Shown here: piece by piece, positions 36,261 to 42,500 of the stretch
Layout of the letters: each line of letters starts with the position of its first letter
Numbering within the stretch: the first letter of the stretch is position 1
DNA from: Candidatus Omnitrophota bacterium
GTDB lineage: Bacteria; Omnitrophota; Gorgyraeia; Gygaellales; Profunditerraquicolaceae
Direction: 5' to 3'
Length of the DNA stretch: 54,384 bases
Assembly (NCBI GenBank): GCA_016208765.1
Contig: JACQXK010000032.1
Span: forward strand, 1 to 54,384
The notes under the pieces: model-generated
Told to the model about the DNA's origin: nothing
Databases searched by the model: none
The model's input: only the letters and a program-made list of their open reading frames with translations
Made by a program: the position numbers and the translations under genes

Positions 36261-37348
36261 TCCAGATACACCCTTTCTGTTTCCTGAGCCATTTTTTCCT
36301 GAGAGAAATTTTGTGCAATAAAAGTTTTTGCACTCTCGGCTAAAATTTTACGCTCCTGCTGGTTCCTGATTAATCTTATTATCGCGCCTGCCAATGCTGC
36401 TGGATCAGCAGGCGCAACAAGCAGGCCGTTAAAACCATTTTTAATCAAAGTCTTTATCCCTCCGACAGCTGTGCCGATTACAGGCTTTTCAGAAGCCATC
36501 GCCTCCATTAAAGCAAGGCCCAGGCCTTCTTTTGTGGAAGGTAAAACAAAAATATCAATTAAAGCATAAATTTCACGGGCATCTTTTACAGTAGGAATAA
36601 ATGAAACATTCTTTTCAATGCCAAGTGAACCCGCCAAAGAGATTAACACCTTTTTCATCTTTCCTTCACCTGCAATTAATAATTTTGCCTGGGGAAATTC
36701 TTTAATTACCTGCTGCATTGCCTCAATAAGATAAATATGCCCCTTTTCTTCGGAAAGCCGGGCAACGACGCCGATCAAAGGGTCGCCTGTCTCCTGTCTC
36801 CTGTTTACCCCAAGCTGAATCGTGAGATCGCTATTCGGCAATTCAGAAAACCTTTCTACATCTATACCGCTGTGGACAACATTAATTCTTTCGTCTTTTA
36901 CTCCAAAATCATTTATCAAATGCTCTTTTACTGAATCACTGACAGCAATGATCCTCTCTCCCCAGAAAGGAAAAAACTTACGCAAAAACCTCGGCTTAAA
37001 AAAACCGTGGCAAGTTGAAATATGCGCAATTCTTGCTCGGTGCTGCAATAAACAACCCAGAACCTGGGTTGTGCGGCTCTGAGAATGCAGAAGATCAATA
37101 TTCTCTTTTCTGATTATTTTTGATAACTTTATAGCGCTAAATAAAATCTGCGGGCTCAGCGCCTGTTTTGTCCTCATAGGAACATCTATATGAGTTATCC
37201 CTTCATTAATAAATCTCTGCACTAATTCCCCGCCGCCAGAAGCAACAAAAACTCTGTGGCCTTTTTTCTTTAAACCGCAGGCTAGGGTAAACACATAGCT
37301 GGTTATCCCACCGGTATTAAGATGATTGGCCAAAAAAAGTATGTTCAT
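36236..37348 (-). CDS. GT4 family glycosyltransferase
   Basis: The 370-residue protein has the two-domain GT-B architecture: FLANHLNTGGITSYVFTLA at the start, ISTCHGFFKPRFLRKFFPFW near 115, VVARLSEEKGHIYLIEAM near 195 and the EGLGLALMEAMASEKPVIGT (EX7E) nucleotide-sugar motif near 275. A heptamer tract (36783-36803) codes for the RRQETGD segment at about residues 182-189, between the two Rossmann-like domains. It ends at the base where the next gene's start lies (shared base 37348). Role: transfer of a hexose or hexosamine to the LPS core; sugar unknown. Confidence 0.87.
   Translation of the reverse strand: MNILFLANHLNTGGITSYVFTLACGLKKKGHRVFVASGGGELVQRFINEGITHIDVPMRTKQALSPQILFSAIKLSKIIRKENIDLLHSQSRTTQVLGCLLQHRARIAHISTCHGFFKPRFLRKFFPFWGERIIAVSDSVKEHLINDFGVKDERINVVHSGIDVERFSELPNSDLTIQLGVNRRQETGDPLIGVVARLSEEKGHIYLIEAMQQVIKEFPQAKLLIAGEGKMKKVLISLAGSLGIEKNVSFIPTVKDAREIYALIDIFVLPSTKEGLGLALMEAMASEKPVIGTAVGGIKTLIKNGFNGLLVAPADPAALAGAIIRLIRNQQERKILAESAKTFIAQNFSQEKMAQETERVYLECLKNVKL
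36783..36803. repeat. Heptamer repeat inside a GT4 coding frame
   Basis: Three 7-nt units, TCGCCTG and TCTCCTG twice, lie in the interdomain linker of the GT4 protein (residues about 182-189, NRRQETGD). The length of 21 nt keeps the frame. Confidence 0.6.
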
Positions 37349-39445: not shown

Positions 39446-41392
39446 TCACAATATTTTCTCTAATGCCTCTTTTACTATTGACCTATCCTCTATAACCTGT
39501 ACCTGCGGTTTGTTAACCATAATATTCTCAACCACAAAATTTAAATCTTCTGGTTTTGTCAAATAAATGTATTTTTTCATGGCGCAATATTCAAGGAACC
39601 TGCGGTGCTTTTCTCCTAATCCGTCAGCTTCAAAAACTAAAACATGCTTTCCGCTTGAAGCAGCCTCAGAAATCATAGAAATGCTCTCTGCTGAAACAAC
39701 CACAATCTTGCTTAAACCCAATATCCCTCCTACTGCCTCGGGAATATTATTCTTATTGGCTATAACTAAAAGCTTGCAACGCGGATAATCTTTAAGTTCC
39801 TGTTCAAATATATTCTCAACTTCCTGTGAGGTCCTGCGAGAAGTAGTCGCCAGAATGTTCATGCCTAATTTTTCTGAAGCAAGTTTAATCTGCCGGATTA
39901 CTTCTAAAACGGAGTTCTTTTCTAATTTAAAATTCTTCGCATCTCCTCCGATTAATAAACCAATATGTAGATCTGTAGCACGTAAACCGTGCGCTGTGTG
40001 CCTTGTGCTCTGCAATAATTTATCAGATTGATTCCTTAAATAATCCTGATTGATCAAATTCAATGCTCCGTTAGTCACAACAACATTCTTGCTCCTTGGC
40101 GGATTGTCATGACGCGGCATAACCACCAAATCAAACTTTCCTTCATTCAATATCGCCGGGCGCATAATAATAACTGATTTTGCAAGATTTTCTCTTGATA
40201 TCAAATAGTTTACAGCGGTTAAAGATGAACCACAGGACACGACAACATTGGGTTTCTTGTCTACAAGTGCCTTATAGGAGCTATTCTCAAGGCAAGACTT
40301 TAAACAATCCAGGCATCCTTGACAAGTATATTTACCGGATAAGAAACTTGCGCACGAAAATATCCTTCGCGACATTCTTGACTTAAACTTGATTTCCGAA
40401 TATTCAACATTGGCCTTAATGCCTTTTTCCTGCCAAGCATCCTCCATGATCTTTGCCAGGGCTTGGGCCTGGCGCAAATGACCTGTCTTGGCGTCTGACA
40501 AAATAAGGATGTTTTTTTGATCGCTATACTTCCAGATTTTATAGGTCCAGAGATACTCCTGCGGATAAAGCCTGATATATTTCTCAAATATATGCGTCAA
40601 TTCCTGAATGTTATCGCGGATATCCGCGGCCCGGTTATTAGTAACTTTTAATTCAAATGGTTTCTCAATAAAGAGTTTAATATGTGGCCCGTGCACACGA
40701 GTAAAAAAAACCGGCAGGATCACCGACTGATATTTTAAAGACAACCTTATAGCACCAGAAGCCATAGCTGCATTACGGCCGAAGAATTTTACCAAAACGC
40801 CGTTTTTACCTCCCTGATCCATAGTCAAGCCCACTGCCTCGTTATTTTTTAATATGCCGATCAAATTTCTGGTCTGGTTCTGGCGCTGGATTAATTTACA
40901 TCCGCTCTTTTGGCGGTAGGAATTTAGCAATCCTTCAATAAGCTTAAATTTCTTCTGGTTGCGCACAAACATGCTGTAAGGATACCCCAAATTAGCAGAA
41001 ATTATATTGGAAAGCTCCCAGCTTCCCTCGTGCACCGGAAGAAGTATCACGCCCTTGCCTTTTTTAAAAGCCTCAGAAAGATTATCAAGGCCTTCAATAG
41101 ACACGTATTTATTTATATAATGCTTATCAACAAGAGGGATTAAAAATACTTCAATGAGGTTCTGACCGAAAGACTGATAGAACTTGCGTGTTATACGGTT
41201 AATTTCAGACGGCGAATATTCGCTCCCCAGGGCAGCCTTGATGTTGGAATAACTGAGCGCTTTATGTTTCAGGTCAAGGCAAAAAATCAGGTCGCCAAGC
41301 CTTCTCCCGAGAAATAAACTAAAATCAATCGGGAATTTCCTGATAATAAATCCAAGGCCTTTAAAGAGAATAAAGCTGATGTATTCTGTCAT
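39446..41392 (-). CDS. LpxL-type lipid A acyltransferase fused to an ELM1-like (DUF1022) domain
   Basis: The first half (about 1-295) is a lysophospholipid/lipid A acyltransferase: LPVHEGSWELSN near 115 (HX4E catalytic dyad), GLTMDQGGKNGVLVKFFGR near 190 and PVFFTRVHGP. The second half (about 296-648) begins ILILSDAKTGHLRQAQALA and has VVSCGSSLTAVNYLI, RHDNPP, LLIGGDAKNF and VVSAESISMISEA, features of the mitochondrial fission ELM1-like family, which has a glycosyltransferase-like fold. A set of C-rich residues (CQGCLDCLKSC near 350) is unusual. A heptamer tract (39975-40009) interrupts the second half at residues about 461-473. The pairing with lpxK (32-nt overlap) puts it in late lipid A assembly. 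Confidence 0.82.
   Translation of the reverse strand: MTEYISFILFKGLGFIIRKFPIDFSLFLGRRLGDLIFCLDLKHKALSYSNIKAALGSEYSPSEINRITRKFYQSFGQNLIEVFLIPLVDKHYINKYVSIEGLDNLSEAFKKGKGVILLPVHEGSWELSNIISANLGYPYSMFVRNQKKFKLIEGLLNSYRQKSGCKLIQRQNQTRNLIGILKNNEAVGLTMDQGGKNGVLVKFFGRNAAMASGAIRLSLKYQSVILPVFFTRVHGPHIKLFIEKPFELKVTNNRAADIRDNIQELTHIFEKYIRLYPQEYLWTYKIWKYSDQKNILILSDAKTGHLRQAQALAKIMEDAWQEKGIKANVEYSEIKFKSRMSRRIFSCASFLSGKYTCQGCLDCLKSCLENSSYKALVDKKPNVVVSCGSSLTAVNYLISRENLAKSVIIMRPAILNEGKFDLVVMPRHDNPPRSKNVVVTNGALNLINQDYLRNQSDKLLQSTRHTAHGLRATDLHIGLLIGGDAKNFKLEKNSVLEVIRQIKLASEKLGMNILATTSRRTSQEVENIFEQELKDYPRCKLLVIANKNNIPEAVGGILGLSKIVVVSAESISMISEAASSGKHVLVFEADGLGEKHRRFLEYCAMKKYIYLTKPEDLNFVVENIMVNKPQVQVIEDRSIVKEALEKIL
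39975..40009. repeat. Degenerate heptamer array inside the ELM1-like half
   Basis: Five successive 7-nt units (GTAGCAC, GTAAACC, GTGCGCT, GTGTGCC, TTGTGCT) lie in frame and code for a basic stretch with RHTAHGLRAT. The 35-nt length is not a multiple of three, so flanking bases must restore the frame. Confidence 0.5.
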
Positions 41393-42500
41393 AAAATCTT
41401 TCTTTTCCGGTTATGATTTTTATGGCAATGCGCAATATATAAATTCGTAACTCGTCCCGACGCGCTATTCCATAGAGGTCGGGATCCCGACTGAACCGAA
41501 GGTGAACGTCGGGATAATTCGTAACTCGTAATTCGTAAAGACGGGAGGCATCTTTTTCAGTAGTAACCAAGATTTCCATGCCCCTCTCTTTCGCCTGCCG
41601 GGCAATGCCCTCTAAATCACTCTGAGAATAATTATAATGATCAGCAAACTTAAAAGATAAACCAACCTTCAGGCCCAATCCAGAGGCCAATTTTTCAAAA
41701 GAATCCGGGTCGCCGATTCCGGAGAACAAAGCAGCGTTCTTGCCGGAAAATGTTTCCAGAGACAAGGGCTTCTCCGGCTGCCCTAACTCATAAAAATACT
41801 GCGGGCTATGCTCAGACTCAATTAATAGCGCCCCAGGGTTAAGGCCAGCCAGAAAACTTTTTAGGCCCTGACTGTCTTTAATAAAATTGGTTTTAGTTAA
41901 AACAAATACATCGGCGCGTTTTAACCCGCAAAGCGGCTCGCGCAAAATACCCCGCGGAAGTAAATGCTTATTCCCAAAAGGATTAACCGCATCAATGGCA
42001 ACAATTTCTAAATCTTTTTTTATCCTCCACTGCTGAAAACCATCATCCAAGATTACCGTATCAGCCTTATAATCCTGGATTGCTTTTTTTGCAGAGTGTA
42101 TGCGATTGCTGTCAACAATCACAGGAATGTTTGTAAGATTTCTCTGTAGCATAAACGGCTCATCTCCCATTATTAAACTTTGCCCAGAAGAAGAATCGGC
42201 AGTCTTTGGTAATTTCTTGTATCCGCGAGTTAAAATTGCAGGATTTTTCCCGTTGGATTTAAGATACTCTGCGATTAGCTGCACTAAAGTGGTCTTTCCT
42301 GTGCCCCCTAAAGTAATATTCCCCACGCTGATTACCTTACATCCCAGACGAAAAGACCTTAAGCGGCTAAAAATGATCAAGCCTCTAACAACTATTGCAT
42401 ATAAAAATGAAAACAGGTATAAAAACCCTTTTAACAGCAAAGGGATTGGCCCTTTTATCCTGTCTGTAGCTAAATCATAGAGATAATCCCGTAGGCTCAA
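41361..42500 (-). CDS. lpxK: Tetraacyldisaccharide 4'-kinase with a repeat-derived insertion
   Basis: LpxK phosphorylates the 4' position of the lipid A precursor at the inner membrane. The 379-residue protein has an N-terminal membrane helix, the P-loop GNITLGGTGKTTLVQLIAEY near 58, LTRGYKK near 94, DDGFQQW near 145 and the family motif ADHYNYSQSDLE near 290 followed by VTTEKDASRL near 310. Straight after this motif, residues about 321-353 are coded by a repeat unit (41442-41536) with no counterpart in usual LpxK; the normal C-terminal strand then resumes (RIYILRIAIKI). It overlaps the acyltransferase start by 32 nt and the DUF502 gene by 4 nt. Confidence 0.93.
   Translation of the reverse strand: MSLRDYLYDLATDRIKGPIPLLLKGFLYLFSFLYAIVVRGLIIFSRLRSFRLGCKVISVGNITLGGTGKTTLVQLIAEYLKSNGKNPAILTRGYKKLPKTADSSSGQSLIMGDEPFMLQRNLTNIPVIVDSNRIHSAKKAIQDYKADTVILDDGFQQWRIKKDLEIVAIDAVNPFGNKHLLPRGILREPLCGLKRADVFVLTKTNFIKDSQGLKSFLAGLNPGALLIESEHSPQYFYELGQPEKPLSLETFSGKNAALFSGIGDPDSFEKLASGLGLKVGLSFKFADHYNYSQSDLEGIARQAKERGMEILVTTEKDASRLYELRVTNYPDVHLRFSRDPDLYGIARRDELRIYILRIAIKIITGKERFYDRIHQLYSL
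41442..41536. repeat. Palindromic repeat unit inserted in lpxK
   Basis: The unit has heptamers at both ends (AATTCGT, AACTCGT at 41442-41455; AATTCGT, AACTCGT, AATTCGT at 41516-41536). Between them are two tandem hairpins, each TCCCGAC, a 16-nt loop, GTCGGGA (41455-41484 and 41485-41514). The lpxK reading frame stays open through all of it. Confidence 0.75.

Follow-up and report, generated by a model that had tools for sequence, protein, structure and literature searches.

How does a palindromic repeat come to lie within the reading frame of a conserved gene? In-frame palindromic insertions are best known from Rickettsia. The question is raised here by lpxK, the gene for tetraacyldisaccharide 4'-kinase, in the genome of an uncultured Candidatus Omnitrophota bacterium (G000). 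The window, i.e., the whole stretch of DNA that was analysed, is 54,384 nt long. A first-pass annotation had described a palindromic unit inserted in frame after the TTEKDA motif of LpxK, and the sequence is as it described. The minus strand reads TTTACGAATTACGAGTTACGAATTA, then TCCCGAC-16 nt-GTCGGGATCCCGAC-16 nt-GTCGGGA, then CGAGTTACGAA, in frame in lpxK. In other words, the TTEKDA motif is followed by 25 nt of heptamers, a 60-nt double hairpin, 11 nt of heptamers, and the normal last strand and helix. The features of the locus are as follows.

41361..42500, minus strand: lpxK, 379 codons, open and insert-bearing (Pfam PF02606, 255.9 bits)
41455..41514, minus strand: 60-nt palindromic unit of two tandem hairpins, encoding residues 330-348 entirely (covariance model R1, 79.5 bits)
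41485..41514, minus strand: hairpin A, TCCCGAC-GTTCACCTTCGGTTCA-GTCGGGA (sequence, DNA fold)
41455..41484, minus strand: hairpin B, TCCCGAC-CTCTATGGAATAGCGC-GTCGGGA (sequence, DNA fold)
41515..41539, minus strand: 5' part of the heptamer array, 25 nt, T TTACGAA TTACGAG TTACGAA TTA
41444..41454, minus strand: 3' part of the heptamer array, 11 nt, CGAG TTACGAA; the two parts make 36 nt, as in relatives without the unit
39446..41392, minus strand: downstream gene (open reading frame) that overlaps the 3' end of lpxK and lies outside the insert; its N-terminal half is lipid A acyltransferase-like by eye

The best explanation, to which a probability of roughly 0.85 is given, is that a REP-like, dispersed 60-nt palindrome inserted without target duplication in a 36-nt heptamer array of lpxK, where it is tolerated in a loop of the protein. 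The first-pass annotation had drawn the unit more widely, as 41442-41536 and about 33 residues with heptamers for its ends. Its two TCCCGAC/GTCGGGA hairpins stand; its extent does not, since the unit proper covers 41455-41514 and its 60 nt add 20 codons to lpxK.

The target site and the protein loop in lpxK

The heptamers form a separate target array. When the unit is taken out, its flanks join as T plus exactly five TTACGAR heptamers, the 36-nt array length of relatives. The lpxK gene of another genome (G091) has five TTACGAG heptamers at the same place and no hairpins. Other genera carry arrays of ~36 nt in the same loop made of different heptamers, namely TTACAGC (G033), GTTTACC (G016), AAGCTGC (G030), ACGCTTC (G024), and GCAAATT (G020). 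In many other genomes the loop is of equal length and unrepetitive. Alignment with homologues showed that the extra segment is absent from ~90 other genomes of the family and order; in these the tail after TTEKDA is ~20 codons shorter and holds at most heptamers or other shorter insertions. The reading of heptamers as unit ends fails because the array occurs without the unit at the same site, and the unit occurs without heptamers in tRNA loci and in tatD.

Descent of the heptamers from one inherited array is doubtful, their types being scattered over the LpxK tree with nine changes and weak clustering. The idea that each genome prefers a single heptamer was rejected because G000 holds several heptamer families. 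The heptamer of this loop changes between genera with the length largely kept, an unexplained form of turnover. Further short insertions, one or more of them palindromic, lie inside heptamer-like sequence of the same loop in G006, G047, and G065 (L025, L035, L096).

The only other genome of the same genus in the set (G001) also carries the unit in this loop. There it follows the first heptamer (11+25 nt), and in G000 it follows the third (25+11 nt), a displacement of two heptamers. The two copies are identical at 51 of 60 positions and differ in hairpin A and in reading frame. The peptide encoded by the unit is not conserved between the two species because it is read in different frames. Do the two copies descend from one event? 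The G001 copy is two heptamers off and its hairpin A is different; either a single ancestral event whose flanks were later reshuffled or a pair of separate insertions could have given this arrangement. The second genome also bears on whether the segment is a repeat misassembly in a metagenome-assembled genome. Both genomes are drafts and repeats provoke misassembly, but the chance of this is negligible because the independent G001 assembly has a different version of the unit at the same loop, and the joined flanks are as long as the array of relatives.

Several results indicate that the interrupted gene is under selection. All residues that are invariant across 49 LpxK homologues are kept in the G000 protein. 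Over codons 1-320, the comparison of G000 with G001 gives dN 0.20 and dS 1.18 (dN/dS about 0.17), i.e., purifying selection. A foreign repeat within a coding frame could mark a decaying gene, and the first-pass annotation had named a pseudogene as an outcome that would overturn its reading. This is extremely unlikely given the open frame, the retained invariant residues, the dN/dS value, and the same state of the gene in two species.

A structural model, proposed at the outset as a check for a surface loop, places the insert in a loop of low confidence. The AlphaFold2 model, built with 49 homologues, has a mean pLDDT of 86.6, and its fold matches that of Aquifex LpxK (4ehy). Residues 327-348 form the sole C-terminal stretch with a pLDDT <50, flanked by blocks at about 94-98; this low confidence may partly stem from the fact that no homologue aligns to the insert. 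This loop connects the two members of the last helix-strand pair, namely helix 315-327 and strand 353-364. The loop with its insert is also the most divergent part of the gene between G000 and G001 (pN 0.52). Could the insert be a selected functional extension of LpxK, for example for contact with the membrane or a partner? The same loop is filled in both species of the genus, as such a role would have it. The idea is nevertheless very improbable because the frame and peptide differ between the two species, divergence is the highest in the gene, and the insert is predicted to be disordered and is absent from all other genera surveyed. Conserved amino acids in the segment, another outcome named as contrary to the first reading, were likewise not found, the insert peptide differing even between the two species of the genus. 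The insert is tolerated, not selected for its peptide, and the enzyme probably still works with an idle, floppy loop.

A dispersed family of hairpin pairs

A DNA search of G000 found two more copies of the unit, with 91% and 84% identity (E 2.6e-25 and 6.8e-19). One is located in the rnfD-rnfE gap and the other in the metK-ahcY gap (gene names by eye); a weaker copy adjoins a tRNA-Leu gene. A covariance model built from 19 units found six good places in G000; in G001 it found about 18, and it matched in 65 of 108 genomes of the family and 66 of 237 genomes of the phylum. The genome search proposed at the outset therefore establishes that the unit is dispersed in G000 and across the family. The genomes are mostly draft assemblies and MAGs; gene boundaries come from open frames, and several gene names rest on Pfam or PDB matches or, where so marked, on reading by eye.

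Most of 80 units are 59-64 nt long, with a few longer, and have a stem of 7 bp and a loop of mostly 15-18 nt. The stems covary, with 10 pairs changed on both sides; none of 500 shuffles reached the score and slid controls were far lower, although the rows were chosen by palindromic look, so that this support for the hairpins is not independent of selection. Folded as single-stranded DNA, the lpxK unit beats 197 of 200 shuffles (z -2.57). No viral contig gave an exact match to a relaxed pattern of the unit, and carriage by phage was set aside on that basis.

The family bears on a reading in which no mobile element is involved and the hairpins were made in place by template switching, the heptamer array acting as a hotspot of replication error. 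Several unrelated short insertions in the arrays of this loop, at least one palindromic (G006, G047, G065), are in its favour, as is the gain of stem-loop insertions at one place among the 7-nt repeats of the Nostoc trnL intron (PMC4476775). However, copies of the 60-nt unit at unlinked loci share its stems and have similar loops, and therefore it was copied from elsewhere, which makes an origin in place quite unlikely.

Alternatively, the unit might act as RNA, its hairpins near the 3' end of lpxK tuning how stable the mRNA is or how lpxK is coupled to the downstream gene that overlaps it. The strong, covarying stems fit this reading, as do the units located between operon genes (rnfD-rnfE, metK-ahcY) and in a riboswitch. 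But the local mRNA fold is mildly unusual at most (z -1.45 for the 105-nt stretch), and the lpxK genes of almost all relatives lack the unit and have nothing in its stead. An RNA role is thus unlikely.

Other insertion sites

Units of this family also lie in other genes. The clearest case is tatD, in which units occupy one identical site in two genomes of one genus (G105 and G111) and in a genome of another genus (G029). The filled site reads ACTTA, 63 nt of unit, and TAAAAAAGC, and the empty site in congeners reads ACTTATAAAAAAGC; the two agree exact to the base, with zero bases duplicated. The tatD genes of the two genera are struck at exactly the same base (L175, L197, L199), and most congeners are empty. 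This coincidence suggests a fixed target or transfer.

In-frame units were also found in recG and purL (both in G246), in glgC (G065), and in a macro-NUDIX gene (G115). Relative to solved homologues, the net insertions are ~20, ~26, ~16, and ~22 residues for RecG, PurL, GlgC, and the macro domain, respectively. The recG unit is 61 nt long. A candidate in rimO (G025) is uncertain and was left off the firm list because there is no net insertion relative to the solved T. maritima RimO. The length of the unit is divisible by 3 in 9 of 10 coding cases vs 22 of 70 elsewhere (p 6e-4, an optimistic value because the coding list was drawn up after a look for open frames and its three tatD entries are relatives of one another). 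In Omnitrophota, a distant phylum, in-frame palindromes thus occur in about half a dozen conserved proteins, for one of which close relatives have exactly matching empty sites. The addition of stretches to working proteins by selfish repeats is thereby testable by direct comparison.

RNA genes form a further group of sites. In a sample of 40 further units, 21 have a predicted tRNA gene no more than 200 bp away, where random placement would give about 2%; the sample was picked by score in a restricted set of genomes, and its members are not independent. Judged by eye, many units break a loop (D, T, or anticodon) in a partial tRNA copy that lies beside an intact tRNA gene. Loci with a tRNA copy and a unit include L007, L074, L171-L174, L178, L245, L248, L252, L256, L272, L292, and L306.

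A unit also occupies one shared junction of c-di-GMP-I riboswitches in two genera, represented by G001 and G067 (L246:1465-1616 and L273:1281-1352). The G001 aptamer with its extra stretch still scores above the Rfam threshold (36.9 bits, gathering 35), and the G067 riboswitch was recognised by eye from sequence. A second riboswitch in G001 (L248:710-868) has a different double hairpin at the junction, and its G000 counterpart (L256:749-836) is empty. That the unit turns up both in fragments of tRNA genes and in riboswitches suggests that insertion follows a shared rule. Complementarity between the two flanks of a unit slightly exceeds that of shuffled pairs (2.86 vs 2.28 of 8), and none of 500 shuffles was as high.

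Mode of insertion and likeness to known systems

How did the unit enter lpxK? On the favoured explanation, the heptamer array would have existed beforehand, encoding a loop between the post-TTEKDA helix and the last beta strand that is constrained in length and free in sequence. The unit would then have entered the array without target duplication, leaving the enzyme with a floppy loop. The gene stayed in frame because 60 nt make 20 codons and two of the three forward frames of the unit are open; insertions that broke a frame were presumably purged.

The target site duplication of a DDE-type MITE is missing: tatD flanks join exactly to the empty site and lpxK flanks to an intact five-heptamer array. 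Movement would thus use a route without target duplication. A Y1 transposase (Y1_Tnp) was not detected in G001, an assembly that is 84% complete and has about 18 copies of the unit, more than G000. Elsewhere, Y1 transposases occur in genomes that have units and in genomes that lack them, and no unit flanks any of the five transposase genes that were checked. A Y1/RAYT transposase was rejected as the mobiliser because it shows no association with the unit. Insertion at hairpin loops or single-stranded places is suggested because tRNA arms and stretches of short repeats are the usual sites; single-strand or hairpin-directed insertion is a guess. One extension of this idea, possible but doubtful, is an undescribed Omnitrophota insertion system aimed at loops of structured nucleic acid. 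Its targets would be the D-, T-, and anticodon-loops of tRNA copies, one c-di-GMP-I riboswitch junction, and heptamer arrays encoding protein loops. Since insertion is precise and without target duplication, the substrate of such a system would be hairpins of single-stranded DNA, or else RNA.

The first-pass annotation had likened the unit to Rickettsia palindromic elements (RPEs). The likeness is one of behaviour and implies no family relationship. RPEs are short dispersed palindromes that lie in frame in unrelated conserved proteins at places compatible with function (PMC10969869, PMC3767692). The Omnitrophota unit likewise occurs at several unlinked loci (6 places in G000, about 18 in G001) and in frame in conserved genes, for which unit-free versions exist in relatives (lpxK, tatD) or solved homologues (recG, glgC, purL, macro-NUDIX). 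However, RPEs measure ~100-150 bp vs ~60 bp for the unit; each has a conserved peptide according to the review, whereas the unit is read in differing frames even in one gene. Unlike RPEs, the unit is concentrated in tRNA fragments.

REP sequences offer another comparison. CGTC REPs combine a stem of 8-9 bp and a loop of 4-5 nt with a CCA tail and, at one end, a CGTC tag, and BIME-like dimers of CGTC- or GTAG-tagged REPs sometimes lie inside genes, adding 20-30 residues, and within palindromic targets (PMC3733652). These dimers resemble the unit as pairs of hairpins that are sometimes found in genes, and CGTC REPs too lack a linked transposase (PMC3733652). The unit is not a CGTC REP because its stems are 7 bp, its loops ~16 nt, and its CGTC falls within or next to the stem. 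Membership of the GTAG REPs fails as no GTAG tag was seen in the unit, and that of RAYT-mobilised REPs or BIMEs fails as there is no linked Y1 (RAYT) transposase. A literature search found no paper describing the unit; most subscription journals lay outside its coverage.

The heptamer array has its own parallels. The P6b helix of the Nostoc trnL intron contains 7-nt arrays whose motifs differ by lineage, with stem-loop insertions at one favoured place (PMC4476775). The LpxK loop shares the lineage-varying 7-nt array and the stem-loop insertions, but the Nostoc array forms an intron RNA helix, whereas the LpxK array encodes a protein loop and receives the hairpins of a dispersed repeat. Geobacter metallireducens has tandem heptanucleotide elements of four or five heptamers within and between genes (PMC2700814). 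Each family there has one consensus, whereas at the LpxK site the heptamer varies by genus at one fixed place.

Heptamer arrays also occur outside the loop discussed above. A second LpxK loop (LSRGYKR to MGDEPYML) has arrays whose heptamers differ by genome (L022, L035, L046, L096, L097, L098, L102). G000 contains period-7 arrays of another family, GACAGGC/GCCTGTC, at C35:70516-76668, C65:43175-43210, and positions 36782-36804 of the window, and among the short periods in a sample of 771 kb, seven is the most frequent. By eye, arrays that look in frame are present in PyrK-like, YggS-like, and electron-transport-like genes (L056, L066, L068).
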